64,000 nucleotides of DNA from Ornithinimicrobium sp. F0845 (lineage in GTDB: Bacteria; Actinomycetota; Actinomycetes; Actinomycetales; Dermatophilaceae), in NCBI RefSeq assembly GCF_023015765.1, contig NZ_JALKAL010000007.1:1-64000 (forward strand), in the 5' to 3' direction. Below the pieces are notes generated by a model. The model was not told the origin of the DNA. It saw nothing but the letters and a program-made list of their open reading frames with translations, and searched no databases. Shown here piece after piece: positions 10,467-35,401 of this stretch. The position numbers and the translations under genes were made by a program. Position 1 is the stretch's first letter, and each line of letters opens with the position of its first letter.

Positions 10467-10603
10467 TGGGTGCCGTCTGGACGTGTGGAGCAACGCAGGC
10501 AACGGGCGACGGGAGCTGAGCTCTTGCAGCGCCGGCTGTACGCGCGACCCACGGCAAGAGCGGATGGTTGGCGACAGGGCCCAAACCGTATTACGATTTG
10601 AGG

Positions 10604-13156: not shown

Positions 13157-13195
13157 TCCCCGAGATGTCAGCCCACCACAGAGGAGTCACGAGCC

Positions 13196-19645: not shown

Positions 19646-19776
19646 CGGCCCACCTCCGTGGTGTCGTGACCAGGAGCGGGTGCTCCGTGGCCCCCGACGC
19701 TAGAGGGATGGCGGACCGGTGGCAAGACCCGCGGCGTCGGGTGCGGGCCGGGCGCCAGGGTGGCAGCGTGGGCAGT

Positions 19777-21461: not shown

Positions 21462-22727
21462 CTACCCGCCCGCCACGTGTCGGGGACCTCGCACACCGCC
21501 GCCGTAACCGAACGGTCGGCTCGGGGGCCGGCGGACCAGGTCACGGCGGAACCCCGCCCGCGCGACCAGCGTCAGGGTGCAGGCCACCAGGAAGGACCCC
21601 GCCGCGACCAGCCACGCCTCACGGAAGCCCAGCCCCGAGACGACCAGCCCCAGCAGCACCGGCCCGATCGCGCCGCCGGTGAAGGCCCCCGCCTGCACGA
21701 CCGACGAGGCCCGGGTGGGCGCGTCCCGGCCGACCCGCGCTACGGCATACAGGAAAAGCCCGGGCCAGGACCAGCCGAGCCCGAAGGCCAGGAACCCGAA
21801 GAGGACGACCGCCCACGGCACCGCGAACACACCGATGAGGAAGAGGCAGACCGCACCCGAGGCCATCTGGAGCGCGACCCACAGCAGGTTGCCGCCGTAG
21901 CGGCGGTCCGCCCGGTGACCCGCCACCACCCTGACGAGGATCGAGCTGCCGGAGCCGGCCGCCATCAGGAGCCCGGCCTGGCCGACCGTCAGCCCCACGT
22001 CATGGGCCCAGCTGGCCAGGTAGGCCCCGAGGAAGTTCGCGGCGGCGCTGGCGAAGGTGATCGCGATGCCGCACAGCAGGAGCGGCCCCCACGGTGCCCG
22101 GTCCACCGCGCCGCCGACGAAGCCACCCCGAGGCACCGTGCGCCCCACTCGCGGTTGCAGCAGCGCCAGCACGATCACCACCAACCCGGTGGTGCCCGTC
22201 ACGACGAAGGTGCTCCGCCAGCCGAAGAGGGCGGTCATGGTCGGCACGGCCAGCCCGCCAAACATGATCGCGGCCGGCACCGCACTCTGCTTGATGCCGA
22301 AGCCGAGACCCCGCCGGTGGGCCGGCAGGACCGTCGCCACCGTCTGGTTCGCGGTGCCCTGACAGGCCGCATTGGCCAGGCCGAGCACCGCCATCACCGC
22401 GATGAGGGTCTCCCAGCGGTGCACGAGGAAGGCGAGCCCAAAACCTCCCAGCGCGACGAGGACGCCAGAGGTGATCTGGCCCTGGCGGCGCGTCCACCTC
22501 TCCAGCAGCCCTCCACCCAGGATGGTGGCCAGCGCGGCGACGGCGAAGAAGGTGCTGACCACCAGGCCGAGCACGGACGGACCGAAGTCGAGGTCGCGTT
22601 GCATCAGCACGGCCTGGGCACCGACGAGGAACGGCGGGATGGCCCCGAGGGTCGTCAGCGCGCTGGCACCCAGCATCACCATCGCGGTCGGCGACCGGTG
22701 TGGGCTCTGGACCACCTGGGCGCCCAC
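21462..22727 (-). CDS. Major facilitator superfamily transporter
   Basis: 421 residues with about twelve hydrophobic segments. The first half contains the loop after helix 2 (LLERWTRRQGQITSG) in place of a canonical GxxxDRxGRR. The second half has the equivalent loop VVAGHRADRRYGGNLLW. Resembles CynX/NimT-like or general MFS exporters; the substrate cannot be assigned. It is convergent with the LigD-like gene and divergent from the GntR regulator, so the promoter region 22728-22848 may serve both directions. Confidence 0.82.
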   Translation of the reverse strand: MGAQVVQSPHRSPTAMVMLGASALTTLGAIPPFLVGAQAVLMQRDLDFGPSVLGLVVSTFFAVAALATILGGGLLERWTRRQGQITSGVLVALGGFGLAFLVHRWETLIAVMAVLGLANAACQGTANQTVATVLPAHRRGLGFGIKQSAVPAAIMFGGLAVPTMTALFGWRSTFVVTGTTGLVVIVLALLQPRVGRTVPRGGFVGGAVDRAPWGPLLLCGIAITFASAAANFLGAYLASWAHDVGLTVGQAGLLMAAGSGSSILVRVVAGHRADRRYGGNLLWVALQMASGAVCLFLIGVFAVPWAVVLFGFLAFGLGWSWPGLFLYAVARVGRDAPTRASSVVQAGAFTGGAIGPVLLGLVVSGLGFREAWLVAAGSFLVACTLTLVARAGFRRDLVRRPPSRPFGYGGGVRGPRHVAGG

Positions 22728-22756
22728 CTCCTGACCAAATTGTTATCTACATGACA

Positions 22757-22790
22757 TTGACGAAATGTACTGCCCTTTGCGATGGTAGTC
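22757..22790 (+). promoter_or_regulatory. Promoter/operator element shared with the catabolic operon, copy A
   Basis: Starts TTGACGAAATGTACTGCCC and continues TTTGCGATGGTAG. The same sequence with three changes in the first 23 bases occurs at 26815 before the CoA-transferase gene. The TTGACG serves as a -35 box; the conserved inner block (AAATGT, GCCCTTTG) is a candidate binding site for the GntR regulator encoded 60 bases downstream. Confidence 0.65.
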
Positions 22791-22848
22791 CCCATTGTCT
22801 GCGCCGGACACCTCGTGCGCGCCACCTTGAGTCAACGGAGACCAGAGT

Positions 22849-23649
22849 ATGTCGAGCAGCTCGCGCCGCGTGGAGGAGCCAGGTTATCGCCGCCTGGCCG
22901 GCCACCTTCGCGACGCGATCAAGGAGAAGCGCTGGGCCGAGGGCGAGGCGCTGCCCACCGACGGCGAGCTCGGCAGCGAGTTCAGCGTGAGCCGCCAGAC
23001 GGTGCGCCGCGCCTACCTCGAGCTCGTCAACGAGGGCCTGGTCTATCGCGTGCCCGGCAGCGGCACCTTCATCACCCCGTCCCACCTGCGCTACCGGCGC
23101 CCGTTCGAGACCGTGGACGACCTGCTCGGGCTGGCCGACGACACCGAGCTCGAGGTGGTGCAGCCCCTCGAGGGCACCTTCGACCCCGACGCGGCCCGCG
23201 AGCTCATGCTCGACTCCCGGCTGATGTATGGCATGCAGTTCCTGCGCCGGCACCAGGGCACTGTCTTCTGTCACACCTCGGTCTTCCTGCCGCCGGAGAT
23301 CGGCCGGCTGCTGGACGGCGAGGAGGCCTTCACCCAGGCCGGTGCCACGAGCACGGTCACCGTCATCGGAGCGCTCACCGCGCGGGGCATCCAGCTGAGC
23401 GGGGCCGAGCAGTCGATGACCGCGCGGTCCGCTACCGAGCTGGACCAGCAGCGACTCGGGTGCGCCATCGGCCACCCGCTGCTGCACGTCGAGCGCCTCT
23501 ACGTCGACCCCAGCGGCCGGGCGGTCGAGTGGGCCGTCTCAGACTTTCTGCCCGAGCACTACACGCACCGGATCCACCTTGGACGCCGGCGCAGCAACCC
23601 TTCGTCGATCACGGCGGAGCGGATCACCAGGAAAGGAACACCCTCATGA
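22849..23649 (+). CDS. GntR-family (HutC-type) transcriptional regulator
   Basis: 266 residues. The N-terminal winged helix (about 10-80) reads YRRLAGHLRDAIKEKRWAEG, ALPTDGELGSEFSVSRQTVR and RVPGSGTFITP, standard for GntR. The C-terminal UTRA ligand-binding domain (about 95-245) includes CHTSVFLPPEIGRLL and LLHVERLYVDPSGRAVEWAV. It probably senses the transported substrate or a CoA-derived intermediate and controls the adjacent TRAP and catabolic genes. Its stop overlaps the dctP start (ATGA), so it is cotranscribed with the transporter. A shared promoter-like element stands upstream of both units. Confidence 0.9.
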   Translation: MSSSSRRVEEPGYRRLAGHLRDAIKEKRWAEGEALPTDGELGSEFSVSRQTVRRAYLELVNEGLVYRVPGSGTFITPSHLRYRRPFETVDDLLGLADDTELEVVQPLEGTFDPDAARELMLDSRLMYGMQFLRRHQGTVFCHTSVFLPPEIGRLLDGEEAFTQAGATSTVTVIGALTARGIQLSGAEQSMTARSATELDQQRLGCAIGHPLLHVERLYVDPSGRAVEWAVSDFLPEHYTHRIHLGRRRSNPSSITAERITRKGTPS

Positions 23650-24695
23650 CCTCTCGCTCTCTGCGCACTCTCGCCATCGTCGCCGTCGGGGCACTGACGC
23701 TGGCTGGCTGCGGCGGCGCTCGCGGTGGTGGCGGCGACGGCGGTGACGCAACCGGTGGTGACGGTGAGACCTTCACGCTGAAGTTCTCCCACGTGACCAC
23801 CGACAGCACCCCCAAGGGCACGGCGGCGCTCTGGTTCGAGGAGGAGCTCGAGAAGCGCACCGATGGTCGCATCGACGTGGAGGTCTACTCCAACTCCTCG
23901 CTCTACGGCGACAAGGACGAGATGCAGGCCATCCAGCAGAACTCGGTCCAGATGCTGGCACCCGCCTCCGCGAAGTTCACCACCGTCGCACCGGCGCTGC
24001 AGGTCCTGGACCTGCCGTTCCTGTTCGACACCCCGGACGACATCCCCAGCGTGGCGGCGCCGGACACCGAGGTCGGCAAGGCGATCTTCGCCAACCCTGA
24101 CCTCGAGGCCAAGAACATGAAGGTCCTCGGCCTGTGGGACTCCGGCATGAAGCAGATCCACTCCAACAACCTCACCCAGTCGCCGGCCGACATGGAGGGC
24201 AAGAAGTACCGCATCCAGCCCTCCGACGTGCTCAAGAGCCAGATCGAGGCCTGGGGTGGCTCGGCCGAGGCGATCGCCTTCGCCGAGGTCTACTCCGCCC
24301 TCCAGCAGGGTGTCATCGACGGCGGTGAGAACACCTACTCCAACATCGAGTCGCAGAAGATGCACACGGTGCAGTCCAACATCGCCGAGTCCAACCACGG
24401 CTACATCGGCTACATCCTCGTGGTCAACACCGAGTTCTTCAACAGCCTGCCCGCGGACCTCCAGGAGATCCTGATCGAGACCGCCGAGGAAGCCTCGACC
24501 TACAACCGCGACAACGTCGTGGGGCTGAACCAGGAGTCCAAGGAGACCATCGAGGCCGAGGGCACCACCGAGATCAACGTGTGGACCGACGAGGAGCGTC
24601 AGGCGTTCAAGGACGTCGTCGTCCCCTCGATCTACGAGCAGTACCGCGATGTGATCGGTCCCGAGATCATCGACGAGCTCCTGGCCAACCAGTGA
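23646..24695 (+). CDS. dctP: TRAP transporter substrate-binding lipoprotein (DctP)
   Basis: 349 residues. A lipoprotein signal ends at LTLAGCGG (Cys about 22), followed by a Gly-rich linker. The DctP fold begins LKFSHVTTDSTPKGTAALWF. It contains ITG-like blocks DLPFLFDTPDDIPSVAA, KVLGLWDSGMKQIHSNN and the FAEVYSALQQGVIDGGENTY region, in which an Arg (KYRIQPSDVL) normally binds a substrate carboxylate. It captures an organic acid outside the membrane and hands it to DctQM. It overlaps the regulator gene by 4 bases and is followed by dctQ and dctM. Confidence 0.93.
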   Translation: MTSRSLRTLAIVAVGALTLAGCGGARGGGGDGGDATGGDGETFTLKFSHVTTDSTPKGTAALWFEEELEKRTDGRIDVEVYSNSSLYGDKDEMQAIQQNSVQMLAPASAKFTTVAPALQVLDLPFLFDTPDDIPSVAAPDTEVGKAIFANPDLEAKNMKVLGLWDSGMKQIHSNNLTQSPADMEGKKYRIQPSDVLKSQIEAWGGSAEAIAFAEVYSALQQGVIDGGENTYSNIESQKMHTVQSNIAESNHGYIGYILVVNTEFFNSLPADLQEILIETAEEASTYNRDNVVGLNQESKETIEAEGTTEINVWTDEERQAFKDVVVPSIYEQYRDVIGPEIIDELLANQ

Positions 24696-24756
24696 CCTCT
24701 GCCCACCCTGCCGGGGCGGTCAGCGACCGCCCCGGCGCCCCACCCCACAGAAGGGT

Positions 24757-25422
24757 GTGAGAGACGTGAGACAGCTAGACAGAGCGCTCACGAACGTCGA
24801 GAACGTCATCGCGGCAGGCACGCTCGGCCTCGCGGCGCTGATCTCGATCGTGAACGTCTTCCTGCGACAGTTAGGCGAGTCCTGGTTCTGGACCGAGGAA
24901 GCCGTCATCTATCTGATCATCTACTCCACGTTCATCGGCGCGGTGATCACACTGCGCCACAACGAGCACGTCAGCGTGGACATCCTCGGTGTCTTCTTCA
25001 AGGACCGGGGCAAGAAGTGGCTGGCCCTGGTCGCCGGTGTCGTGACGATCATCTATCTGCTGATCATGGGCTACCTCGGGTGGCAGCTGCTCTTCGAGCC
25101 GTTCTCCCGCACCACCGTCACCCCCGTCCTCAAGCTGCCCCTGTGGGTCGTGGAGCTCGCCGTCCCGATCGGCATGACGCTCATGCTGCTCCGGGCTCTG
25201 GAGATGCTCTGGCGCACCTGGCGCCACGGCATCCCGACCAGCGAGGACCTGCTGGCCGCCGAGGCCGAGGCCACCGGCCTGACCCTCGAGGAGATCCGTG
25301 CCTCCAACGCCGAGATCTCCGGCGCGGGCGACACCTTCGGTGCCTCACCCCCTGAGGGAGATGCCCGCGACGACAGGGGCGACGACAAGGGTCCCGGCGA
25401 GCCGAAGGGAGACGGCCGATGA
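24757..25422 (+). CDS. dctQ: TRAP transporter small permease (DctQ)
   Basis: 221 residues. Four membrane segments in the first 160 residues include NVFLRQLGESWFWTEEAVIY, which fits the DctQ signature, and VITLRHNEHVSVDILGVFF. The C-terminal 65 residues are a hydrophilic, acidic tail (EGDARDDRGDDKGPGEPKGD) that is longer than usual for the family. The start is a GTG at 24757 behind AGAAGGG; a second GTG at 24766 is possible. The stop overlaps dctM by four bases. Confidence 0.9.
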   Translation: MRDVRQLDRALTNVENVIAAGTLGLAALISIVNVFLRQLGESWFWTEEAVIYLIIYSTFIGAVITLRHNEHVSVDILGVFFKDRGKKWLALVAGVVTIIYLLIMGYLGWQLLFEPFSRTTVTPVLKLPLWVVELAVPIGMTLMLLRALEMLWRTWRHGIPTSEDLLAAEAEATGLTLEEIRASNAEISGAGDTFGASPPEGDARDDRGDDKGPGEPKGDGR

Positions 25423-26699
25423 GCACCGAAGTCATCACACTGCTGGTGATCCTGTTCGCGCTGCTGTTCACCTCGACGCCGATCGCGATGGCGTTGGGAC
25501 TGACGTCCTTCGTCTACCTCTACTACTTCACGACCATCCCGCTCACCCAGGTCGTGGAGCGCCTGTTCAACGCGCTCAACAGCTTCCCGCTGATGGCCAT
25601 CCCGTTCTTCATCCTGGCCGCCAACATCATGACCCGCGGAGGCATCAGCCGAAGGCTCACCGAGTTCGGCAACGCTCTCGTGGGGCAGTATCGCGGCGGC
25701 ATGGCGATGACGGCCGTGCTGGCCTGCATGTTCTTCGCCGCGGTTTCGGGCTCCAGCCCGGCCACCGTGATCGCCGTCGGCACGCTGATGATCCCGGCGA
25801 TGATCCGCCACGGCTACTCCAAGCAGTTCTCCACCGGTCTGATCGCCACCTCCGGCTCGCTGGGCATCCTGATCCCGCCGTCAATCCCGCTGATCGTCTA
25901 TGGCATCGCCACCGAGCAGAGCATTGGTGACCTGTTCATGGCCGGGATCATCCCCGGTGCGGTGGCCGGCGTGATGCTGCTCGGCATGGCCGTGTGGGTC
26001 TCGCGGCGCAAGAACTACGGTGAGCACACCGGCGAGCGACTGCCGAAGGGCACGCGCCGCCGCGCCCTGCGGGACGCCATACTGGCCCTGCTGCTGCCGG
26101 TCATCGTGCTGGGCGGCATCTACGGCGGCTTCTTCACCCCGACCGAGGCGGCAGCCATGGCCGTGGCCTACAGCCTGGTGGTCGCGCTGCTCATCTATCG
26201 CGAGCTGAGCCTCAAGGACCTCGGCAAGGTGCTGCTCTCCTCGGCGAAGACGTCGGCGATGATCATGTTCATCATCGCCAACGGCATCCTGTTCACCTTC
26301 GTCCTGGCGGCCGAGCGGATCCCCGACCAGATCACGACGGGCATCGCCAACATGAGTCTCGAGCCGTGGCAGTTCCTGGCCCTGGTCAACATCCTGCTGC
26401 TGATCGTCGGCTGCTTCATGGAGACCAGCAGTGCGATCCTGATCCTGGCGCCGATCCTGCTGCCGATCGCCATGGAGATGGGCGTGGACCCGATCCACCT
26501 GGGCATCATCATCGTGATGAACCTGGAGATCGGGATGATCACCCCGCCCCTCGGGCTCAACCTGTTCGTCGCCTCCGGCCTGTCCGGGATGAGTGTGCTG
26601 CAGGTGGCCAAGGCTGCGATCCCCAGCGCGGCGGCCCTGATAACCGCGCTGATCCTGGTGACCTACCTGCCGATCCTGTCGCTGGCGCTCATCAGATGA
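25419..26699 (+). CDS. dctM: TRAP transporter large permease (DctM)
   Basis: 426 residues with about twelve membrane segments. Family motifs include PLMAIPFFILAANIMTRGGI, FFAAVSGSSPATVIAVGTLM, SGSLGILIPPSIPLIVYGIA, TPTEAAAMAVAYSLVV and MITPPLGLNLFVASGLSGM. With DctPQ it forms a sodium-driven high-affinity importer for a di- or tricarboxylate or related acid. It starts inside the end of dctQ (ATGA). A hairpin terminator follows at 26704, which separates the transporter unit from the catabolic unit. Confidence 0.94.
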   Translation: MSTEVITLLVILFALLFTSTPIAMALGLTSFVYLYYFTTIPLTQVVERLFNALNSFPLMAIPFFILAANIMTRGGISRRLTEFGNALVGQYRGGMAMTAVLACMFFAAVSGSSPATVIAVGTLMIPAMIRHGYSKQFSTGLIATSGSLGILIPPSIPLIVYGIATEQSIGDLFMAGIIPGAVAGVMLLGMAVWVSRRKNYGEHTGERLPKGTRRRALRDAILALLLPVIVLGGIYGGFFTPTEAAAMAVAYSLVVALLIYRELSLKDLGKVLLSSAKTSAMIMFIIANGILFTFVLAAERIPDQITTGIANMSLEPWQFLALVNILLLIVGCFMETSSAILILAPILLPIAMEMGVDPIHLGIIIVMNLEIGMITPPLGLNLFVASGLSGMSVLQVAKAAIPSAAALITALILVTYLPILSLALIR

Positions 26700-26703
26700 C
26701 CCA

Positions 26704-26750
26704 GGAGTATGCCGGGGGCCGGCTCACCAGCCCGGCCCTCGGCATACTCC
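26704..26750 (+). terminator. Hairpin terminator after dctM, built from AGTATGCC and its complement
   Basis: Arms 26704-26722 and 26732-26750 are 19 bases each with one mismatch (GGAGTATGCCGGGGGCCGG against CCGGCCCTCGGCATACTCC), with a 9-base loop. There is no T-run. The outer part of the stem is one GTATGCC and one GGCATAC motif. Confidence 0.8.
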
Positions 26751-26814
26751 GCCACCGTCCCGCCCGTCGCCACACCTGATCCCGCACCACCTCATCACCG
26801 TGGCCCATCTCTCG

Positions 26815-26848
26815 TTGACAAAATGTGCGGCCCTTTGAAAATATAGCC
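26815..26848 (+). promoter_or_regulatory. Promoter/operator element shared with the regulator operon, copy B
   Basis: TTGACAAAATGTGCGGCCC followed by TTTGAAAATATAG. The -35 box TTGACA is perfect here. The AT-rich AAAATATAG lies where a -10 is expected. It is the counterpart of the element at 22757. Confidence 0.65.
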
Positions 26849-26872
26849 TCACATCTTTGGAGGAATCCCCCT

Positions 26873-28033
26873 ATGAACCCTCTCGACGGGATCACCGTCG
26901 TCAGCCTCGAGCAGGCCGTGGCGGCGCCGTTCGCCACCCGCCAGCTCGCCGATCTCGGCGCCCGCGTGATCAAGGTCGAGCGCCCCGGCCCCGGCGACTT
27001 CGCCCGTGCCTATGACGAGACCGTCAAGGGCATGTCCAGCCACTTCGTCTGGCTCAACCGCTCCAAGGAGTCGGTCGCGCTGGATCTGAAGAGCCCGCTG
27101 GGCCAGGAGGCGATCACCGCCCTGGCGCAGGAGGCAGACGTCTTCGTCCAGAACCTCGCCCCCGGCGCTGCCGAACGCCTCGGCCTGGGGGCCGAGGCGC
27201 TGCGTGCCATCAACCCGCGCCTGGTGCACGTGTCGATCTCCGGCTATGGCCCGGGCGGTCCCTACACGACCAAGAAGGCCTACGACCTGCTCGTGCAGTG
27301 CGAGGCCGGCCTGGTCTCGATCACCGGCACCGAGGACGAGCCGTCCAAGGTCGGCATCTCGGTGGCCGACATCGCCGCGGGGATGTATGCCTACACCGGG
27401 ATCCTGACCGCCCTCTTCCAGCGCGAGCGCACCGGCGAGGGCGCCACTCTGGAGGTGTCGATGCTGGAGGCGCTGGCCGAGTGGATGGGCTTCCCGCTGA
27501 ACTACGCGATGTATGGCGGCACGCCCCCGCGGCGCAGCGGTGCCCGGCACGCGGCAATCGCCCCCTATGGCCCGTTCCACTGCGGCGACGGGGAGCAGGT
27601 CTTCCTCGGCATCCAGAACGAGCGCGAGTGGGCGACCTTCTGCGAGCAGGTGCTCGGCAACGCCGGCCTGGCCACCGACCCCCGCTTCGAGCGCAACAGC
27701 CTGCGGGTGGAGAACACCGCCGAGCTCAACGCCGAGATCGAGCGGGCCTTCGCCGACCAGAGCGCCGAGCAGGCCGCGGACCGGCTCGAGGAGGTCGGGA
27801 TCGCCAACGCGCTGCTGCGCGACATGGCCGGTCTGGCCGCCCACCCTCAGCTGCAGGCGCGTGAGCGCTGGGTTGACTACGACTCCCCCGTCGGGCCCCT
27901 CCGGGCGCTGATCCCACCGGCCACGCTGCAGGGCAGCACACCCGTGATGGGCCCGATCCCCACCGTCGGTGAGCACACCGACCAGATCCTGACCGAGCTC
28001 GGTCTGGCCCCAGCCGCAGGAGGCACCCCGTGA
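26873..28033 (+). CDS. Class III CoA-transferase (CaiB/BaiF family), itaconate/C5-acid type inferred
   Basis: 386 residues. The family start is GITVVSLEQAVAAPFATRQL and the catalytic Asp (about 138) is in TTKKAYDLLVQCEAG. Further blocks are the KVERPGPGDFARAYD and TGTEDEPSKVGISVADIAAG regions. It moves CoA from a donor such as succinyl-CoA to an acid. In this context it is the candidate itaconate/mesaconate CoA-transferase (compare PA0882, Ict). A GGAGGA ribosome site precedes the ATG. The stop overlaps the MmgE/PrpD start (GTGA). The exact acid is inferred from neighbours only. Confidence 0.9.
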   Translation: MNPLDGITVVSLEQAVAAPFATRQLADLGARVIKVERPGPGDFARAYDETVKGMSSHFVWLNRSKESVALDLKSPLGQEAITALAQEADVFVQNLAPGAAERLGLGAEALRAINPRLVHVSISGYGPGGPYTTKKAYDLLVQCEAGLVSITGTEDEPSKVGISVADIAAGMYAYTGILTALFQRERTGEGATLEVSMLEALAEWMGFPLNYAMYGGTPPRRSGARHAAIAPYGPFHCGDGEQVFLGIQNEREWATFCEQVLGNAGLATDPRFERNSLRVENTAELNAEIERAFADQSAEQAADRLEEVGIANALLRDMAGLAAHPQLQARERWVDYDSPVGPLRALIPPATLQGSTPVMGPIPTVGEHTDQILTELGLAPAAGGTP

Positions 28034-29382
28034 GCATCGACACCATCAGCACCGAGGAAGGCGCCCCCGACGCGACTGCAACCGGCACGCCCGCCGTGGC
28101 TGTGGCGCTCGCCACGTGGGCAAGCACCACCAAGCCGTCGCAGGCCGACCTCGACCTGGCGGACCGGAGCCTGCTCGACACCGTCGCCGTGGCCCTGGCC
28201 GCCCGCACCCATCAGATCAGGCCGGTCGTGGACGCCCTCGACGGCCAGGCTGCCCGGTGGGCCGCGCTGGCCCACGTCATCGACTTCGACGACCTGCACC
28301 TGCCCTCGACCACGCACATCTCGACCGTCTGCGTCCCCGTCGCCCTGACGAGCGGCGGGCACGACGGGCAGGTCGCTGCCCGGGCCTATCTCGCCGGCGC
28401 AGGGGTCATGGCCCGGTTGGGCACGGCCCTGGGCTGGTCGCACTACACCGCGGGTTGGCACGCCACCACGACCTCCGGGGCGATCGCCGCGGCCGTGGTC
28501 GCGGGCATCGCGCGCGGGCTGAGCCAGGAGCAGCTGACCAACGCCATCGCGCTGGCCGTCCCCGCCTCCGGCGGTGTCCAGCGCGCGTTCGGCACCGACG
28601 CCAAGAGCCTGCAGGTCGGGCTGGCCGCGCAGGCCGGGATCACGGCGGCCCAGCTCGCCGCGGCCGGCGCCACCGCCGACCCGCGGGCGGTCGAGGCCTG
28701 GATGGAGCTGCTCGGCGGTGACCCGACCCACCCGCTGGTCACCGACCCCTCGTCCGATCCCGCGATGATCCCCGACGGTCTGGCCATCAAGGTCTACCCC
28801 GCCTGCTATGCCCTCCAGCGACCGATCGGCGCGCTGCGCGAGACCGTCGGCGAGCCGATCAGCGCCGAGCAGGTCGCAGCGATCCGGCTGAGCACCCCGC
28901 GCGGCACGGTCACCCCGCTGGTCCACCACCAGCCGCAGACCGGCCTCGAGGGCAAGTTCAGCCTGGAGTATGCCGCCGCGACCGCCCTGCTCGACCCGCA
29001 CTCCGGCTTCCGCGCCTTCGGCGACGAGGCCGTGCAGCGCGCCGACGCGCAGCGGCTCATCGACCTCACCGAGATCACCCTCACCGACGAGACCGGCGAC
29101 GGCCTGCTGCTCGGCGCGGTCGAGGTCGAGGTGGACCTGAGCGACGGGCGCACCCTCACCGGCTCCCTGGACCTGCCGCCGGGCTCACCCGGCAAGCCGC
29201 CGACCGACGCCGAGATGGAGGCGAAGGTCACCGACTGCCTGCAGCTCGGCGGCATCGAGGGCGTCACGCCCGCGGAGATCACGTGGGACACCGGCGCCCA
29301 CCTGCTCATCACCCACCTGGGGCCGAGCGTCCCAGCCGACCGTTCGGCATACGTCCTGGGAACCGATGGCACCTCTCCCTGA
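28030..29382 (+). CDS. MmgE/PrpD family protein
   Basis: 450 residues from a GTG overlapping the CoA-transferase stop. MmgE/PrpD features include SLLDTVAVALAAR, the HVIDFDDLHLPSTTHISTVC block (corresponding to the D-D-x-H active-site region), GWHATTTSGAIAAAVVAGIA and IKVYPACYALQRPIGALRE. Known members are 2-methylcitrate dehydratase, cis-aconitate decarboxylase and iminodisuccinate epimerase, so a lyase or dehydratase acting on a polycarboxylate is likely. Homologues occur in itaconate clusters (PA0881 from memory), where their role is not settled. A paired-motif array follows the stop by 15 bases. Confidence 0.9.
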   Translation: MSIDTISTEEGAPDATATGTPAVAVALATWASTTKPSQADLDLADRSLLDTVAVALAARTHQIRPVVDALDGQAARWAALAHVIDFDDLHLPSTTHISTVCVPVALTSGGHDGQVAARAYLAGAGVMARLGTALGWSHYTAGWHATTTSGAIAAAVVAGIARGLSQEQLTNAIALAVPASGGVQRAFGTDAKSLQVGLAAQAGITAAQLAAAGATADPRAVEAWMELLGGDPTHPLVTDPSSDPAMIPDGLAIKVYPACYALQRPIGALRETVGEPISAEQVAAIRLSTPRGTVTPLVHHQPQTGLEGKFSLEYAAATALLDPHSGFRAFGDEAVQRADAQRLIDLTEITLTDETGDGLLLGAVEVEVDLSDGRTLTGSLDLPPGSPGKPPTDAEMEAKVTDCLQLGGIEGVTPAEITWDTGAHLLITHLGPSVPADRSAYVLGTDGTSP

Positions 29383-29397
29383 CGTGCGGGAGGAGCA

Positions 29398-29449
29398 GCA
29401 AAACCACTACGAAAATTGCAGACAGACCAGCAAAACCACTACGAAAAAT
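29398..29449 (+). repeat. Paired 20-bp A-rich motif, array 2
   Basis: Units GCAAAACCACTACGAAAATT (29398-29417) and GCAAAACCACTACGAAAAAT (29430-29449), 32 bp apart start to start with spacer GCAGACAGACCA. The array lies between the MmgE/PrpD stop and the acyl-CoA dehydrogenase start, on their strand. Confidence 0.85.
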
Positions 29450-29460
29450 GATGGGACACG

Positions 29461-30642
29461 ATGAGCACCGAGATGCTGTCCGAAGACGAGGTTGAGATCG
29501 TCCGCCTGGTGCGGGAGTTCGTCACCGAGCAGGTCAAGCCGACCGCCAGCGAGCTGGAGCACGCCAACACCTATCCCGAGGAGCTCATCGACGCGATGAA
29601 GCAGATGGGCATCTTCGGGCTCGCCATCCCCGAGCCGTGGGGCGAGGCTCAGGTGAGCCTGCCGGCATACTGCTTGGTCACCGAGGAGCTGGCCCGCGGC
29701 TGGATGAGCCTGGCGGGCGCGATGGGCGGGCACACGGTGGTCGCCAAGCTGATCCTGGCCTACGGCACGCAGGAGCAGAAGGACACCTACCTGCCGCGGA
29801 TGGCCACCGGCGAGCTGCGCGCGACGATGGCGCTGACCGAGCCCGGCGGCGGCTCCGACCTGCAGGCGATGCGCACCACCGCCAAGGTCGACGGCGATGA
29901 CTATGTCGTGAACGGCTCCAAGACCTGGATCACCAACGCCCGCAAGGCCGAGCTGATCGCCCTCATGGTCAAGACCGACCCCGAGGCGCAGCCGCGGCAC
30001 AAGGGCGTCTCGATCCTGCTCGTGGAGAAGTCCGGCGAGGACGGGCTTGAGGGCTTCCACCTCTCCCGCGACCTGCCCAAGCTCGGATACAAGGGCGTGG
30101 AGTCCTGCGAGATCGCCTTCGACGGGATGCGGGTCCCGCGCTCGGCGCTGCTCGGCGAGACCGAGGGCCTCGGCTTCTCCCAGATGATGAAGGGCCTGGA
30201 GGTCGGCCGCCTGCAGGTCGCCTCCCGCGCGCTCGGTGTCGGCCGGGCGGCCCTGGAGGACTCGCTGCAGTATGCCCAGGAGCGCGAGTCGTTCGGCGTC
30301 CCCATCTGGAAGCACCAGTCGATCGGCAACTACCTGGCCGAGATGGCCACCAAGCTGGTCGCCGCCCGCCAGCTCACCCTGCACGCCGCCCGCGCGTTCG
30401 ACGCCGGTCAGCGCGCCGACATGGAGGCCGGGATGGCCAAGCTGTTCGCCTCCGAGGTCGGCATGGAGATCGCCCTTGACGCGATCCGGATCCACGGCGG
30501 CTACGGCTACTCCACCGAGTTCGACGTGGAGCGCTATTTCCGCGATGCTCCTCTCATGATCGTCGGCGAGGGCACCAACGAGATCCAGAAGAACGTGATC
30601 GCCCGCCAGCTGGTCAAGCGCGGCAACGTGGACCCCGTATGA
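29461..30642 (+). CDS. Acyl-CoA dehydrogenase
   Basis: 393 residues. The FAD and substrate motifs are standard: ATMALTEPGGGSDLQAMRTT, NGSKTWITNA, GRLQVASRALGVGRAALED and the C-terminal IHGGYGYSTEFDVERYFRDA then IVGEGTNEIQKNVIARQL, in which the Glu of GEGTNEI is the expected catalytic base. It oxidises an acyl-CoA to an enoyl-CoA using electron-transfer flavoprotein. Within this cluster a methylsuccinyl-CoA-like substrate is possible (compare PA0879); this is inference. The ATG lies 11 bases after the paired-motif array, and the stop overlaps the lyase start (ATGA). Confidence 0.92.
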   Translation: MSTEMLSEDEVEIVRLVREFVTEQVKPTASELEHANTYPEELIDAMKQMGIFGLAIPEPWGEAQVSLPAYCLVTEELARGWMSLAGAMGGHTVVAKLILAYGTQEQKDTYLPRMATGELRATMALTEPGGGSDLQAMRTTAKVDGDDYVVNGSKTWITNARKAELIALMVKTDPEAQPRHKGVSILLVEKSGEDGLEGFHLSRDLPKLGYKGVESCEIAFDGMRVPRSALLGETEGLGFSQMMKGLEVGRLQVASRALGVGRAALEDSLQYAQERESFGVPIWKHQSIGNYLAEMATKLVAARQLTLHAARAFDAGQRADMEAGMAKLFASEVGMEIALDAIRIHGGYGYSTEFDVERYFRDAPLMIVGEGTNEIQKNVIARQLVKRGNVDPV

Positions 30643-31457
30643 CGCAGGTCCAGTCCGCGCGCTCCTTCCTGTTCGTCCCGGGTGACCGGCCGGACCGGTT
30701 CGACAAGGCCGTCGCCACCGGCGCCGACGTGGTGATCATCGACCTGGAGGACGCGGTCGCCCCCGAGACCAAGGCGGAGGCACGGCATGCCGCGACCATG
30801 TTTATCAGCGAGGGCGGCCGAGCGGCCGTGCGCCTCAACGGTGCCGACAGCACCGAGCATGCGGCCGACGTGCTGGCACTCGCCGGGACCCACAACGCAC
30901 CCCGGCATCAGCTCGTGGCAGTGGTGCTGCCCAAGGCCGAGGACCCTGACGTGGCCAGCACCATCGCCGAGCAGATCGGGGTGCCCGTCATCGCCCTCGT
31001 GGAGTCCGCCCTCGGTGTCGCGCGGGCCCACGAGCTGGCACGTGCCCCCGGCGTGGCACGGCTGGCGCTGGGCCACCTGGACCTGGCCGCCGACCTGGGC
31101 AGCGGCAATGGCCGGGAGGCGATGCTGCTGGCCCGCTCGACCCTGGTGCTGGCCTCCCGTGCTGCCGGACTACCCGGCCCGATCGACGGCGTGACCACCG
31201 CCCTCGACGACACCGACGTGCTCGTCGACGACCTGGCCTACGCCCGAGACCTGGGCCTGACCGGCAAGCTCCTCATCCACCCCCGACAGGTGGAGCCCAC
31301 GCACGCCGCGCACCGCCCCTCCGAGGACGAGGTCGCCTGGGCTCAGCGTGTGCTCGAGGCCGCGGCCGGTGGAGGCGCCGTGCGCGTCGACGGCGACATG
31401 GTCGACGCGCCCGTCGTGGCGCGCGCCGAGGACATCCTGCGACGGAGGGAGGGCTGA
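30639..31457 (+). CDS. CitE-like lyase (HpcH/HpaI family), citramalyl-CoA lyase candidate
   Basis: 272 residues. CitE features: SFLFVPGDRPDRFDKAVATG, DLEDAVAPETKAEAR, the substrate-Arg strand VRLNG, the metal-binding Glu122 in VIALVESALG and Asp148 in GHLDLAADLG, and LLIHPRQVEP. Stand-alone CitE proteins cleave malyl-, methylmalyl- or citramalyl-CoA. In an itaconate cluster it would split citramalyl-CoA to acetyl-CoA and pyruvate (Ccl). It overlaps both neighbours by 1-4 bases. Confidence 0.88.
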   Translation: MTQVQSARSFLFVPGDRPDRFDKAVATGADVVIIDLEDAVAPETKAEARHAATMFISEGGRAAVRLNGADSTEHAADVLALAGTHNAPRHQLVAVVLPKAEDPDVASTIAEQIGVPVIALVESALGVARAHELARAPGVARLALGHLDLAADLGSGNGREAMLLARSTLVLASRAAGLPGPIDGVTTALDDTDVLVDDLAYARDLGLTGKLLIHPRQVEPTHAAHRPSEDEVAWAQRVLEAAAGGGAVRVDGDMVDAPVVARAEDILRRREG

Positions 31458-32278
31458 TGACCGAGACCACGACCCGCACCGAGGTGATCTCCGCCGAGCC
31501 GGTCGAGTCGCTGGCCGCGGTGCTCGAGACCCCCGTGCCGTTCGAGGCCGGATCACCCGTCCCGCCGCTGTGGCACTGGATGTACCTGCTGGACCGCCGC
31601 CGCCAGTCCGACCTCGGCCCCGACGGCCACCCGACCAGCGGCATCCCCGCCCCACCCGGCCCAGGACGCCGCCGCATGTTCGCGGGCGGGCGCGTGACGA
31701 CATACTCCCCGCTGGTCATCGGCGAGCCCGCGACCAAGGTCACCTCCATCGCCAAGACCGTGGAGAAGGAGGGGCGCACCGGCCCGCTGACCTTCGTCAC
31801 GGTCCTGCAGGAGATCAGCCAGGGCGGTCAGCTCGCCGTCCGCGAGGAGCAGGACATCGTCTATCGCGCTCCCGGCACCGGCGCCCTGCCGCCCGCCCCC
31901 GAGCCGCCCACCCCACCGGCCGGACCTAGGCTGACCCTGGCGGTCGACGAACGGCTGCTCTTCCGGTTCAGCGCGCTGACCTACAACACGCACCGCATCC
32001 ACTACGACCTGGGGTATGTGCCGACCGAGGGCTACGACGGGCTGGTCATCCACGGCCCGCTGCAGGCCCTGCTGATGGGCGACCTGATGCGCCGCGAGGG
32101 CATCGACCTGGTGGGACAGACCTTCGGCTACCGGCTGGTCTCCCCGATGGTCGGCACGCAGACGCTGACCATCGTGCCCGGCCAGGACGGGCTGGAGCGG
32201 GGGGCGGAGTCCCGCAGCGCGGCCGGGGCGATCTGCGCGACCAGCACGCTGTCGCCCGCGGGTGAGACCGTTGGCTGA
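31457..32278 (+). CDS. FAS1-like dehydratase/hydratase (mesaconyl- or itaconyl-CoA hydratase candidate)
   Basis: 273 residues of the HTD2/FAS1-like dehydratase type: PLWHWMYLLDRRRQSDLGPD, RRRMFAGGRVTTYSPLVIGE, and the hot-dog hydratase segment LLFRFSALTYNTHRIHYDLG followed by GYDGLVIHGPLQALLMGDLM. YNTHRIHYD carries the His/Asp expected for hydration. Chloroflexus mesaconyl-C4-CoA hydratase and the itaconyl-CoA hydratases of itaconate clusters belong to this group. Predicted step: itaconyl-CoA or mesaconyl-CoA plus water to citramalyl-CoA. The last residues are overlapped by the next gene. Confidence 0.82.
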   Translation: MTETTTRTEVISAEPVESLAAVLETPVPFEAGSPVPPLWHWMYLLDRRRQSDLGPDGHPTSGIPAPPGPGRRRMFAGGRVTTYSPLVIGEPATKVTSIAKTVEKEGRTGPLTFVTVLQEISQGGQLAVREEQDIVYRAPGTGALPPAPEPPTPPAGPRLTLAVDERLLFRFSALTYNTHRIHYDLGYVPTEGYDGLVIHGPLQALLMGDLMRREGIDLVGQTFGYRLVSPMVGTQTLTIVPGQDGLERGAESRSAAGAICATSTLSPAGETVG

Positions 32279-33071
32279 CGCGGTCCTGCTCGAGGTCGAC
32301 GACCGCGGCGTCGCGACGGTCACGCTCAACCGGCCCGAGGTCAACAACGCCTATGACGAGGCGATGCTGCGCGGCGTCCACGCGGCCGTCGACGCCGCCG
32401 AGGCGTCACTGACGACAGACTCCCCCGTGCGCTGCGTCGTGCTGCGCGGCAACGGGCGGCACTTCCAGGCGGGCGCCGACCTGCACTGGCTCAACGCCGT
32501 GCGCACCGGCAGCCCCGAGGACAACCTCGCGGCCTCCGACCTGACCGGCAGCGCCGTGCGCCGGCTCAGCCAGCTGAACGTGCCGGTCGTCGCCCTCGTG
32601 CAGGGCGCCTGCTTCGGCGGGGGCACCGGCGTGCTGGCCGCCGCCGACGTCGTGCTGTGCGGCGAGGACTCGGTCTTCTCCATCGCCGAGGTCCGCTGGG
32701 GCCTGCACGCCTCGATCATCCTGCCGCAGCTGGCGGACGCGATCGGCGCGCGGCAGGTGCGGCGTTATGCCCTCACCGGCGAGCGCTTCGACGCCGCGGA
32801 GGCCCGTCGGATCGGGCTCGTGCACGACGTCGTGCCCCGCGAGGCGCTTGAGGAGCGCGGTGCCGCGGTCGTCGAGGCGATCCTGGCGAGCGGGCCAGGC
32901 GCCGTCAGCACGACCAAGCGGATCGCCCGCGACCTGTCCTGGACGGCCGTTGACGACGCCGAGTTCACCGACCTGGTCGCCGAGCACAGCGCCGCCCGCC
33001 AGTCGCCCGAGGCGGCCGAGGGTCTCGCGGCCTTCGCCGAGAAGCGGCCGCCGGCCTGGGCGGTCAACTAA
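32262..33071 (+). CDS. Enoyl-CoA hydratase/isomerase
   Basis: 269 residues. Crotonase-fold motifs: VATVTLNRPEVNNAYDEAML, the oxyanion-hole Gly region VVLRGNGRHFQAGADLHWLN, and FGGGTGVLAAADVVLCGEDS with IAEVRWGL, which provides the second catalytic position. Similar to methylglutaconyl-CoA hydratases of leucine-type pathways. It starts at GTG 32262, or TTG 32271, inside the end of the preceding gene. This step is not part of the minimal itaconate route, so it may handle a branched C5 or C6 enoyl-CoA made by the dehydrogenase. Confidence 0.87.
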   Translation: MRPLADAVLLEVDDRGVATVTLNRPEVNNAYDEAMLRGVHAAVDAAEASLTTDSPVRCVVLRGNGRHFQAGADLHWLNAVRTGSPEDNLAASDLTGSAVRRLSQLNVPVVALVQGACFGGGTGVLAAADVVLCGEDSVFSIAEVRWGLHASIILPQLADAIGARQVRRYALTGERFDAAEARRIGLVHDVVPREALEERGAAVVEAILASGPGAVSTTKRIARDLSWTAVDDAEFTDLVAEHSAARQSPEAAEGLAAFAEKRPPAWAVN

Positions 33072-33163
33072 AGACCCGTCCCCGGCCGCGGATCGGCTGA
33101 CGGGCGATGGGCGAAGGACGGGACTAGCGTCGGTCACACGCCACTGTCGAGGGAGGGTTTGCC

Positions 33164-34351
33164 ATGTCCGGACTGCACCTGCTGGCCGGGATCCGGGTCG
33201 TCTCGATGGAGCAGTTCATCGCCGGCCCCTACTGTTCCTCGCTGCTGTCCGACGCCGGCGCCGAGGTCATCAAGGTCGAGCGTCCCGGCACGGGCGAGCC
33301 GCGCCGGACCTACCAGCCCCGCCTCGGGCCGGAGGACGACTACGTCAGTGGCGGCTTCGCGTCATACAACCGGGGCAAGCGGTCCGTCGAGATCGACCTG
33401 CGCAGCGACGAGGGGCGCGAGTCGTTGCTCGGCCTGCTCGCCGACGCGGACGTCTTCCTCTGCAACAACCGGCCCGGGTCGCTGGAGCGCCTCGGCCTGG
33501 GCGTCCCGGTGCTGCGCGAGCGCTTCCCCCAGCTGGTGATCTGCGAGATCACCGGCTTCGGGGTCTCTGGTGGGCCGTATGCCGAGTGGCCGGCCTTCGA
33601 CTCCGTCATCCAGGCGATGAGCGGGCTGAGCAGCCTCCTCGGCACCGCCCCGGAGGAGCCGCCGCTGCTGGCGCCGATGGGGACGATGGACCTGCTCACC
33701 GGGGTCTATGCCTGCCTCGGCATCCTCACCGCGCTGGTGCACCGCAGCCGCACCGGCGAGGGCACGCACGTGGACGCGGCGATGTATGACATCGGTGCCG
33801 CGTTCCTCGAGCGTCCGCTGACCCTTCACGAGTTCACCGGTGAGGTGCCCACGCGCGGCATCGACCGGTTCAGCCCGGTCGGGGCCTTCCGTGCGGGCGA
33901 CGGCGGCTGGATCTCGATCGTCATCCCCACCGACGAGATGTGGCAGCGCTGTTGCGCCGCGATGGGCCGGCCCGACCTGGTCGACGACCCGGCCCTCGAC
34001 ACCGTGCTGAAGCGGGCCGAGCGGATGCAGGACCGGGTGCTGCCCGCCCTCGAGGAGTGGGCCGCGAGCCTGGGTCAGCACGAGGCGGTCGAGGCGTTGC
34101 GCGGCGCGGGCCAGCCCGCCGGGGCGGTGCAGACGATCGCGGACGTGCGGGACTGTCCGCAGCTGGCGCACCGCGGGCTCTTCGTGCCGATGCAGGACGA
34201 GCGCCTCGAGCGCGAGGACGGCAGCCACCCCGCCCTGCCGCGGCTGCCGCTGCTCTTCAACGGCCAGGCCGCCGACCCCGGCACCGTGCCACGGCTCGGC
34301 GAGTCCAACGGACTGCTGAACCCGCCACCGGACGCGTCCTCTCCGGGCTGA
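33164..34351 (+). CDS. Second class III CoA-transferase (CaiB/BaiF family)
   Basis: 395 residues. The same fold as the gene at 26873 but clearly diverged: LLAGIRVVSMEQFIAGPYCS, AGAEVIKVERPGTGEPRRTY, the catalytic Asp146 in EWPAFDSVIQAMSG and MDLLTGVYACLGILTALVHR. A 92-base gap and a GGAGGG site precede the ATG. Two CoA-transferases in one cluster suggest two different acids, or sequential activation of substrate and product. The gene ends the catabolic unit; REP copy 4 follows. Confidence 0.88.
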   Translation: MSGLHLLAGIRVVSMEQFIAGPYCSSLLSDAGAEVIKVERPGTGEPRRTYQPRLGPEDDYVSGGFASYNRGKRSVEIDLRSDEGRESLLGLLADADVFLCNNRPGSLERLGLGVPVLRERFPQLVICEITGFGVSGGPYAEWPAFDSVIQAMSGLSSLLGTAPEEPPLLAPMGTMDLLTGVYACLGILTALVHRSRTGEGTHVDAAMYDIGAAFLERPLTLHEFTGEVPTRGIDRFSPVGAFRAGDGGWISIVIPTDEMWQRCCAAMGRPDLVDDPALDTVLKRAERMQDRVLPALEEWAASLGQHEAVEALRGAGQPAGAVQTIADVRDCPQLAHRGLFVPMQDERLEREDGSHPALPRLPLLFNGQAADPGTVPRLGESNGLLNPPPDASSPG

Positions 34352-34420
34352 GTCATCGGCGTCGGCGGCGGCCGTGCTTCCGGCCAGCGCCGCGCTTACC
34401 CCGGCGCGCGCCTCCGGCCG

Positions 34421-34687
34421 CCTCTTCGAGCGCCCCGTCGTTCTTCGGGCCGACTGCAGGGCCTGTTGCTAAATGGAGAGTGCTGGGCGGGCCGCCGGAC
34501 GATCTCCCGCACGATCGCTCCGGGCGCCCTGGATTCGCCTCGGTAGCGCGGTATTTGGACACTGTCCGGCCCAGTTCCGGGCCCCGCGACTCGCGTGACC
34601 GGAAATTTTCCGGTCACGCCGCGAGCGCCGTCCATTTTGCAACAGGCCCTGCAACCGGCTCGAGGAACCGTTGGGCGCTCGAAGACG
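34421..34687. repeat. REP-like palindromic element, copy 4 of 5, interrupted by a MITE
   Basis: The left half (34421-34458) opens CCTCTTCGAGCGCC and ends CGACTGCA. The right half (34650-34687) begins TGCAACCGGCTCGAGG and closes GGGCGCTCGAAGACG. Joining the halves over one TGCA gives a sequence that aligns with copy 1. The 360-bp gap 34352-34711 contains only this element and its insert. Confidence 0.88.
34459..34649. mobile_element. 191-bp MITE-like insertion with terminal inverted repeats and TGCA duplication
   Basis: The left end reads GGGCCTGTTGCTAAATGGA. The right end, reverse-complemented, reads GGGCCTGTTGCAAAATGGA: 19 bases, one mismatch. TGCA stands on both sides (34455-34458 and 34650-34653). 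The interior has no reading frame of note but contains an 11-bp-arm palindrome at 34595-34617 (GTGACCGGAAA, one base, TTTCCGGTCAC). It is non-autonomous; the transposase family is not determined. Confidence 0.8.
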
Positions 34688-34711
34688 AATAGGCGGAGAT
34701 GGAGATAAGGC

Positions 34712-35401
34712 TCAGGAAGTGCTCGTCGGCACCCGCGGGACCGCGGCAAAGCTCGACAGCTTCAGCCACGAAGGGAAGGCGCGCCGCAGGTCGGGTGCGC
34801 CCGTGACGCGCACGGTGCCGTCGCGGAGGGTCCGGCTCCACGACAGGTCGCCGCGCCACACGTGGACCAGCGTGGGCAGGTCGGCGCTCACCGTGACGTC
34901 GACCGGGAAGCCAGGGTCGGCGTCGCACAGGTCGACGACGCGGTCGGCCTCCACCACGATCCACCAGCGCCGGGTCCGGGGCTCCACATCCGGGAACTCG
35001 AAGGCCAGCACGGTCCGCCCACTCGGCATGGAGGCCAGGTCGAGATTGCGCTGCATGTCCCACATGAGCAGCGAGGGGTCGTAGTCCTCCTCGCCGAGCG
35101 CGGTGCGCCACTGGACGCCCCACGCGCCCAGCGCCATCACGATCGGCTCGAGCGCACGACCGCCGGGCGTGAGCTCGTAGCGGATCCGGTTGCCGTCGTC
35201 CCGGCGCAGCACGATTCCGGCCTTCGCCAGACTCCGCAGCCGCTTGGAGAGCAGAGCCGGGGACATCTTGGGCACCCCGCGGCGCAGCTCGTTGAAGTGC
35301 TGACTGCCGCTCAACAGCTCCCGGATGATCAGGACCGTCCACCGCTCGTCCAGGATCTCCATCGTCTTGGCGACCGGGCAGAACTGGCCGTAACCCGCCA
35401 C
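34712..35401 (-). CDS. HxlR-family regulator with C-terminal SCP2-like domain
   Basis: 229 residues from a GTG at 35401, chosen because AAGGAGG stands 8 bases before it and because similarity begins there (VAGYGQFCPVAKTMEILDER). Residues 1-100 form the HxlR winged helix: WTVLIIRELLSGSQHFNELR, RGVPKMSPALLSKRLRSLAK and YELTPGGRALEPIVMALG. Residues about 115-225 resemble an SCP2-type fold (VLAFEFPDVEPRTRRWWIVV, VDVTVSADLPTLVHVWRGD). It probably controls itself and the divergent methyltransferase through the palindrome at 35467. Confidence 0.85.
   Translation of the reverse strand: MAGYGQFCPVAKTMEILDERWTVLIIRELLSGSQHFNELRRGVPKMSPALLSKRLRSLAKAGIVLRRDDGNRIRYELTPGGRALEPIVMALGAWGVQWRTALGEEDYDPSLLMWDMQRNLDLASMPSGRTVLAFEFPDVEPRTRRWWIVVEADRVVDLCDADPGFPVDVTVSADLPTLVHVWRGDLSWSRTLRDGTVRVTGAPDLRRAFPSWLKLSSFAAVPRVPTSTS

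Follow-up and report, generated by a model that had tools for sequence, protein, structure and literature searches.

The gene cluster and its core enzymes

The region analysed lies at positions 22849-34351 of a 64,000-nucleotide stretch of DNA from Ornithinimicrobium sp. F0845 (contig NZ_JALKAL010000007.1), referred to below as the window. Open reading frames (ORFs), Pfam and NCBIfam bore out the genes that the original prediction had listed there, namely gntR, dctPQM, caiB1, mmgE, acad, citE, ich, ech and caiB2, all on the + strand and mostly overlapping. Six of the ten junctions overlap, and gaps occur at dctP-dctQ, dctM-caiB1 (173 bp), mmgE-acad and ech-caiB2. The locus quite probably serves the catabolism of itaconate and methylsuccinate, with GntR repressing two promoters. 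Superfamily membership, synteny, non-orthology, catalytic residues and a conserved operator are read from the sequence, and from these we infer the substrates, the direction of flow, the repression and the inducer. Itaconate is an antimicrobial from macrophages and fungi, and it matters which organisms can consume it.

The FAS1/MaoC protein encoded by ich (31457..32278, +) is a predicted itaconyl-CoA / mesaconyl-C4-CoA hydratase. In a PDB comparison set of 177,635 distinct sequences its only strong matches were 8khg, which is titled itaconyl-CoA hydratase (E 1.5e-47), and 8huc, a nearly identical chain titled just MaoC_dehydrat_N; the window protein has a conserved HRIHYD block and belongs by sequence to the family of 8khg, the P. 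aeruginosa Ich. For the predicted (S)-citramalyl-CoA lyase (Ccl) encoded by citE (30639..31457, +) the best PDB matches were 9nzb and 8khl (E 4e-54, 187 bits), and the next distinct family member, 6aq4 (E 9e-35, 124 bits), followed 63 bits behind. We take 6aq4 to be a mycobacterial CitE-like protein and 8khl, which has the PDB title 'Probable acyl-CoA lyase beta chain', to be PA0883. The product of caiB1 (26873..28033, +; PF02515, 382 bits) is a family III CoA-transferase, predicted to be an itaconate/(R)-methylsuccinate CoA-transferase (Ict). A cluster from Pseudomonas dryadis (L085) has a CaiB with which the caiB1 product shares 59% identity over 382 aa, and Ich and CitE were each 44% identical to their counterparts in that cluster. 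The order there, ich, dehydrogenase, mmgE, caiB, citE and dctP, is the order of PA0878, PA0879, PA0881, PA0882, PA0883 and PA0884 as given in PMC12290011 and PMC12599236. Among the 11 clusters having an MmgE of the window's type (A-type, see below), CaiB1 scored 455-489 bits with the P. dryadis CaiB in 10, and 370 bits in L021, where the match was split over two frames. None of CaiB1, Ich and CitE reached an equivalog cut-off in the NCBIfam scan (the best model for CitE was RipC, with 155 bits under a cut-off of 375), so membership in the core rests on relative similarity and not on a curated call. By these comparisons the three proteins group with the Pseudomonas-type itaconate pathway, and the itaconate-type core of CoA-transferase, hydratase and lyase, predicted originally together with linked TRAP uptake, is well supported and can be proposed with considerable confidence.

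The transporter is encoded by dctP (23646..24695, +), dctQ (24757..25422, +; small permease, PF04290 106 bits) and dctM (25419..26699, +; large permease, PF06808 421 bits and TIGR00786 461 bits against a cut-off of 268). DctP is an IctP-like TRAP substrate-binding protein. Its start was placed at ATG 23646, overlapping the gntR stop, and a lipobox-like LTLAGC was seen by eye after the start. The PDB matches were 4o94, 9dsy, 9dtl and 9ht3 (IctP), with E values of 9e-72 to 3e-66. When compared with the IctPQM system (PMC12599236), DctP keeps eight of the ten IctP ligand residues checked (K41, K94, R169, Q171, F192, N209, N213 and Y236) and differs at S91, which is Ala, and V234, which is Ile, in the window and in all other A-type rows (12/12). 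Ile234 was also found in two of four proteobacterial binding proteins near such clusters (L053, L085) and in 4o94, so position 234 cannot settle the ligand.

In the proposed pathway DctPQM would import a branched C5 dicarboxylate, CaiB1 would charge itaconate or (R)-methylsuccinate with CoA taken from succinyl-CoA, Ich would isomerise and hydrate itaconyl-CoA, or hydrate mesaconyl-C4-CoA, to (S)-citramalyl-CoA, and CitE would cleave this product to acetyl-CoA and pyruvate. A different pathway built from the same superfamilies, in which no branched C5 dicarboxylate takes part (for example a glutarate-like or leucine-derived one), would agree with the breadth of all the superfamilies, with the failure of every enzyme to exceed an NCBIfam equivalog cut-off, with the resemblance of ECH to carboxygeranoyl-CoA hydratase, under the NCBIfam cut-off, and with a mycobacterial CitE that acts in leucine and itaconate breakdown alike (PMC6689899). 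Such a pathway is most improbable; the strong solved relatives of Ich, confined to 8khg and 8huc, the greater nearness of CitE to 8khl/9nzb than to 6aq4, and the linked TRAP dicarboxylate carrier all speak against it.

The crotonase gene ech (32262..33071, +; PF00378, 150 bits) and caiB2 (33164..34351, +; a second family III CoA-transferase, PF02515, 347 bits) are accessory. Among the loci read the pair was found in three of the seven same-genus clusters, those of the window, G015 (L095) and G005 (L099), and is a genus-level add-on outside the conserved core; the wider substrate range once read from it found no support. In G015 the ech match (L095:11386-12196) runs over two overlapping frames, as if frameshifted. 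The NCBIfam model nearest to CaiB2 was succinyl-CoA:mesaconate CoA-transferase, at 237 bits against a cut-off of 700. Catabolism of mesaconate or citramalate, with CaiB1 or CaiB2 activating the acid, Ich and CitE finishing and itaconate incidental, would account for that match, and the P. aeruginosa hydratase doubles as a mesaconyl-C4-CoA hydratase (PMC12290011). This alternative is nevertheless improbable, since four of the seven same-genus clusters have neither CaiB2 nor ECH, and since CaiB1 stands closest to the cluster transferases, and the C. necator member of these did not use mesaconate (Table 2 of PMC12290011).

Subfamilies of the predicted isomerase and dehydrogenase

In the proteobacterial cluster the MmgE protein is an (S)-(R)-methylsuccinate isomerase (Msi; Goenner et al., PMC12290011) and the dehydrogenase a (RS)-methylsuccinyl-C4-CoA dehydrogenase (Mcd; PMC12290011). 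On account of these activities that cluster serves methylsuccinate besides itaconate, a use of the Pseudomonas-type cluster that was missed when the degradation of itaconate was predicted for the window. Proteins related to these two, from Pseudomonas, Cupriavidus, Paraburkholderia and others, were classed by bit score as P-type, and are distinct from the assayed proteins themselves; those of the window's kind were classed as A-type.

The mmgE gene (28030..29382, +) encodes an MmgE/PrpD protein by Pfam, which is predicted to isomerise a C5 dicarboxylate (methylsuccinate) and falls in a subfamily other than Msi. Its scores with P-type MmgE were 55-87 bits. In the MmgE tree, from which rows of less than 280 aa or 90 bits were left out, the 15 A-type rows grouped together (100/98), apart from a clade of the 18 P-type rows (100/100). 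On a profile made from the 18 P-type rows the P rows scored 551-861 bits, the 15 A rows 35-90, and fragments of iminodisuccinate (IDS) epimerase and BsIRG1 112 and 164. The A-type scores on this profile are below 550, the published Msi cut-off, which its authors set on a different profile of their own (PMC12290011). The NCBIfam scan returned no family for the window MmgE, and the PrpD model (cut-off 950) was also unmatched. By these comparisons A-type MmgE is non-orthologous to proteobacterial Msi.

The nearest solved MmgE/PrpD relatives are IDS epimerase and the B. subtilis IRG1 homologue (2hp3 and 7bra), which have the same seven catalytic residues but reach only 137 and 164 bits with the window MmgE and have a different context. 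The seven IDS-epimerase residues H85, D88, H99, Y145, H150, K198 and K266 were kept in 15 of 15 A-type rows. All 15 have the two-base His and Tyr and the carboxylate-binding His, Lys and Lys, with Asp where the P-type has Glu. The seven residues indicate competence and not substrate, because other MmgE rows, BsIRG1 included, carry them too. A third MmgE type adjoins ich in Gordonia, Rhodococcus koreensis and G261 (L014:8546-10786, L094:10154-18329, L135:8422-10669), with Thr in place of Tyr in 3/3 and 46-49 bits on the PrpD model (cut-off 950); the stretches read at these three loci showed no dehydrogenase of the A-type or the P-type.

The acad gene (29461..30642, +) encodes a FadE3-like acyl-CoA dehydrogenase (ACAD) of 393 aa, a predicted methylsuccinyl-CoA dehydrogenase. 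Its scores were 160-201 bits with dehydrogenases of the P-type and 530-850 with those of the A-type, and it was 33% identical to a proteobacterial cluster dehydrogenase. The 29 A-type rows (100/100) and the 22 P-type rows (96/93) formed separate clades in a tree limited to rows of at least 300 aa and 120 bits, and A-type ACAD is, on this evidence, non-orthologous to proteobacterial Mcd. In the PDB the window protein matched 4iv6 (FadE3) with 642 bits, 6es9 with 278 and 4u83 with 272, the last two scores being too close for their order to discriminate. The second of these, 6es9, is presumably PdMCD, a (2S)-methylsuccinyl-C1-CoA dehydrogenase. The window protein is without the N-terminal extension of about 170 residues of the ethylmalonyl-pathway Mcd, its residues 9-385 aligning to 6es9 169-550, and unlike that enzyme it is FadE3-like and would be expected to use the C4 ester.

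The catalytic Glu (E370) is at the canonical position in 29/29 A-type ACAD rows, as in the ethylmalonyl-pathway Mcd (PMC5798300), and Pro stands there in 22/22 P-type rows. R256 was present in 29/29 A-type rows and in 1 of 20 control dehydrogenases. The controls were 8 from the loci and 12 from the window's own genome, in which 13 other Acyl-CoA_dh_M matches were found and the short L145 was left out; alignment A3 excludes L098. R256 lies 114 residues before the catalytic Glu, a spacing equal to that between Arg421, in helix G, and Glu535 of PdMCD, and its equivalence with Arg421, which together with two other Arg has been proposed to hold the substrate carboxylate (PMC5798300), is based on this residue spacing alone. 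The flavin-side aromatic residue is replaced by Met (M123) in 29/29 A-type rows, 21/22 P-type rows and 2/20 controls. The R256, Glu and Met features fit a short branched dicarboxyl-CoA substrate without proving it. R120, considered as a residue common to the P-type, was dropped when careful alignment showed a one-residue offset.

As proposed, MmgE would interconvert (S)- and (R)-methylsuccinate, and the dehydrogenase would oxidise methylsuccinyl-C4-CoA to mesaconyl-C4-CoA, which joins the same pathway. A methylsuccinate role for these two convergent enzymes appears likely. Alternatively the core may serve itaconate only, with MmgE and the dehydrogenase acting on a different imported diacid, such as another alkylsuccinate, that enters at the acyl-CoA level. 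The non-orthology of both enzymes with Msi and Mcd would suit this, as would an mmgE-caiB-acad trio that stands without ich or citE in G143, and the modelled Msi site could fit larger substrates with C3 modifications (PMC12290011). We regard it as unlikely: the five gene kinds are identical to those of the cluster proven for itaconate/methylsuccinate, all six loci with A-type MmgE in the best 80 Ich loci have A-type ACAD, CaiB1 and CitE, and the flavin-side Met is common to A-type and P-type dehydrogenases.

If itaconate and methylsuccinate are the substrates, as preferred here, the isomerase and dehydrogenase steps were seemingly recruited twice onto one core, because MmgE and ACAD come from other subfamilies. 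The locus had been described as a mirror of the itaconate locus, which holds for CaiB1, Ich and CitE; for MmgE and ACAD the likeness is one of convergence, because neither is orthologous to its proteobacterial counterpart. It is somewhat favoured that Actinobacteria built the pathway a second time, by placing an IDS-epimerase-like MmgE and a FadE3-like dehydrogenase, with a GntR operator, onto the Ict/Ich/Ccl core. If true, the chemistry would be a convergent recruitment onto one core, the methylsuccinate isomerase and the methylsuccinyl-C4-CoA dehydrogenase would each gain a second, unrecognised family, FadE3-like dehydrogenases would gain a testable substrate, and methylsuccinate use would not be almost confined to Proteobacteria. 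In a published survey 96.2% of methylsuccinate isomerases were in Pseudomonadota (PMC12290011); an Msi-type threshold would not count A-type MmgE.

Promoters and the putative GntR operator

The regulator gene gntR (22849..23649, +) encodes a GntR/HutC-type protein with a UTRA ligand domain (PF00392 66 bits, PF07702 48 bits), and a conserved putative operator was found at both promoters of the locus. The first, the gntR-dctPQM promoter with its operator left half-site (22757..22779, +), has the -35 element TTGACG and an exact match to TTGACRAAATGTRCKGCCCTTTG. The second is the caiB1 promoter (26815..26853, +), where the operator TGTGCGGCC-N12-AGCCTCACA lies behind the -35 element TTGACA and across the -10 region. 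The dctM-caiB1 gap also holds a long stem-loop without a T run (26704..26750, +; -43.8 kcal/mol, z -7.1, 0/200 shuffles). A consensus scan of 22600-34800 reported a single sigma-70-like promoter, in this same gap, with 0.4 expected by shuffling, and left the gntR promoter unreported. The set from gntR to caiB2 is probably split over two transcripts rather than one, because the gap has both the strong hairpin and the sigma-70-like promoter; the one-direction cluster of the original prediction therefore stands as regards the genes, and as a single unit it probably does not, with ech-caiB2 outside the core. The likely caiB1 start is ATG 26873, preceded by GGAGGA, and a longer GTG start at 26825 falls within the operator.

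TTGACRAAATGTRCKGCCCTTTG had two exact matches in the window, one before gntR and one before caiB1 (mean 0.00 in 100 shuffles). With up to two mismatches AAATGTRCKGCCCTTY was found at three places in the 4.2-Mb genome, which are the two exact sites here and one with two mismatches, treated as chance; a reversed control gave 0. The placement of both exact genomic matches at this locus supports local GntR control of two transcripts, and control by GntR had been predicted. Both sites were kept, with at most two mismatches, in five same-genus loci and in L013. A near-perfect dyad, TGTRCGGCC...GGCCGYACA, was found at the caiB1 promoter of L015, L016 and L017 and at the gntR promoter of L019 (0/200 shuffles each). 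The window caiB1 operator has 9 of 11 dyad pairs, equalled in 7/200 shuffles, and by this comparison is a decayed form of the near-perfect dyad; the caiB1 promoter of L133 has a weaker dyad (5/200 shuffles), similar to that of the window.

The first operator pattern missed L016, and L019 at two mismatches or fewer, and reading of the intergenic regions revealed the dyads there and in L133. A variant pattern, again with at most two mismatches, had a single match in L019, another close to the L132 mmgE frame start, and none in L016, L018, L020, L023-L025, L131 and L133-L135. No significant dyad was found in L021 (176/200 shuffles). No operator site with two or fewer mismatches was found in L014, L018 and L094, loci at which no gntR relative was found.

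The left half-site is directly behind the caiB1 -35 element TTGACA and the right half past the -10 region. Because the half-sites flank or overlap the promoter elements, occlusion of polymerase is the natural reading. GntR would repress both the gntR-dctPQM promoter and that from caiB1 onward from the overlapping operator, and an inducer would relieve the repression. If true, the repressor and operator would form a candidate sensor for branched C5 dicarboxylates. No paper combining itaconate, GntR and a TRAP transporter was found in the open-access library searched. For the P. aeruginosa locus the original prediction had given a LysR-type regulator; LysR is not named in the main texts of PMC12290011 and PMC9875883, the two papers of that library that mention methylsuccinate isomerase.

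Distribution and comparison with known systems

Loci in named genomes were taken from a scan with Ich, as the best 80 of 591 confirmed stretches; some contigs were short, so absences in these loci are lower bounds. Ich was found with at least 86% identity in 7 of 31 same-genus genomes, the window's own included, and the trait is therefore patchy within the genus; at E <= 0.001 Ich matched in 10 of 58 genomes. The original prediction had proposed comparison of neighbourhoods across actinobacteria, and this comparison gave all nine core genes in five same-genus loci (L095-L098, L100), the set from acad through caiB2 in a sixth (L099, a 6.3-kb contig), and rearranged forms in other families. With the nine genes recurring in the genus and recurring rearranged in other actinobacterial families, the arrangement is not due to chance.

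A-type MmgE together with A-type ACAD, CaiB1 and CitE was found at six of the best 80 Ich loci (L013, L015, L016, L017, L019, L021). Five of the six have a gntR relative, and the contig of the sixth begins about 2.1 kb before caiB1. In L015, L016 and L133 the gntR-dctP block and the enzyme genes are divergently oriented, and L021 has an order of its own. Besides the 6 loci with both A-type partners, the best 80 comprised 14 with the A-type dehydrogenase only, 11 with both P-type partners, 11 with the P-type dehydrogenase only and 7 with P-type MmgE only; no locus among them combined MmgE of one type with ACAD of the other. A quick Ich tree divided into an actinobacterial clade of 37 rows and another clade of 55 rows, and the partner types follow this split except in L046 (P-type dehydrogenase, actinobacterial clade). 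L083, L086 and L101 are from Actinomycetota yet fall in the other Ich clade, the phylum of L101 being judged from its kinship to the window. Loci L103-L130 were left out of the neighbour reading. In the class, A-type MmgE (at least 395 bits) was found in 4 of 394 genomes, the window's own included.

Several observations weigh against itaconate and methylsuccinate catabolism as the role of such clusters. MmgE is nearer to IDS epimerase and to B. subtilis 'IRG1', to which PMC12290011 ascribes no determined function, than to Msi, and may therefore act on a different diacid. The P-type rows compared were relatives from the same genera in place of the assayed proteins. In the trees the software flagged long branches in several outgroup rows as well as in BsIRG1 and IDS epimerase, so that the deeper placement is unsure. 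As regards the other proteins, R256 was equated with Arg421 by spacing, the best solved relatives of CaiB1 are YfdE 4hl6 (237 bits) and a formyl-CoA transferase, its best NCBIfam model is an oxalate/formyl-type transferase, under the cut-off, and DctP, like the solved relative 4o94, has Ile and not Val at the itaconate-specifying position 234. The window gntR site shows the left half-site only, with a non-significant dyad (200/200 shuffles as good). Among genomes, MmgE and ACAD, whether A-type or P-type, are both missing from 31 of the best 80 Ich loci, some of these being on short contigs; the 19 kb read in G421 (L133) contain the set apart from citE; G143 (L131:8598-12727) has mmgE-caiB-acad alone, with no ich or citE in 19.5 kb; and in G092 the A-type mmgE is accompanied by gntR and by a TRAP system of another kind. 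Ich-like proteins (E <= 1e-20) were present in 33 of the 394 class genomes, and beyond that of the window 1 of 32 (G421) adjoins an A-type MmgE. A C. necator Ich paralogue is thought to serve another pathway (PMC12290011).

The Pseudomonas/Cupriavidus cluster (PA0878-PA0886) has the same lines of family III CoA-transferase, FAS1/MaoC hydratase and CitE lyase and likewise holds MmgE and acyl-CoA dehydrogenase genes, with a TRAP carrier in P. aeruginosa. The actinobacterial locus differs in its MmgE and dehydrogenase subfamilies, with the canonical catalytic Glu where the P-type has Pro, in its GntR/UTRA regulator with its own operator, and in gene order. The Yersinia-type rip cluster carries out the same overall pathway, and its RipC model is the best, far under cut-off, for the window CitE. 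RipA is not known to be a family III transferase. The window has MmgE, ACAD and TRAP genes, whereas three genes are usual in the Y. pestis type (PMC12290011).

The isocitrate lyase match in the genome consists of two adjoining pieces within one 462-aa ORF; isocitrate lyase is inhibited by itaconate (PMC7397319). The mmgE-caiB-acad trio of G143 is near pknG-like and PLP-enzyme genes.

On the Prescottella (Rhodococcus) equi plasmid pVAPN1571 an ORF 64% identical to the window Ich lies between vapP and vapO (L093:4402-5298), and the annotated coding sequence begins later than the match. Prescottella accounts for 36 of 207 plasmid records matching Ich. The plasmid hydratase groups with Gordonia/Rhodococcus hydratases in a quick tree, and in the 9.8 kb read of L093 neither the CoA-transferase nor the lyase of the pathway was found. 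No paper naming both 'Rhodococcus equi' and 'itaconate' was found in the open-access library searched.

The genes flanking the cluster are seemingly unrelated to it, with genes for MFS and LigD-like proteins upstream and HxlR-like and methyltransferase-like genes downstream, one of each. The LigD-like protein (19594-21426) has phosphoesterase and primase-polymerase domains, and a ligase domain was unmatched at E 0.001. Six short ORFs at 10568-13636, five of them with a third-position GC of 0.73-0.82, below the rest of the window, surround the stretch of lowest GC in the window (64%).

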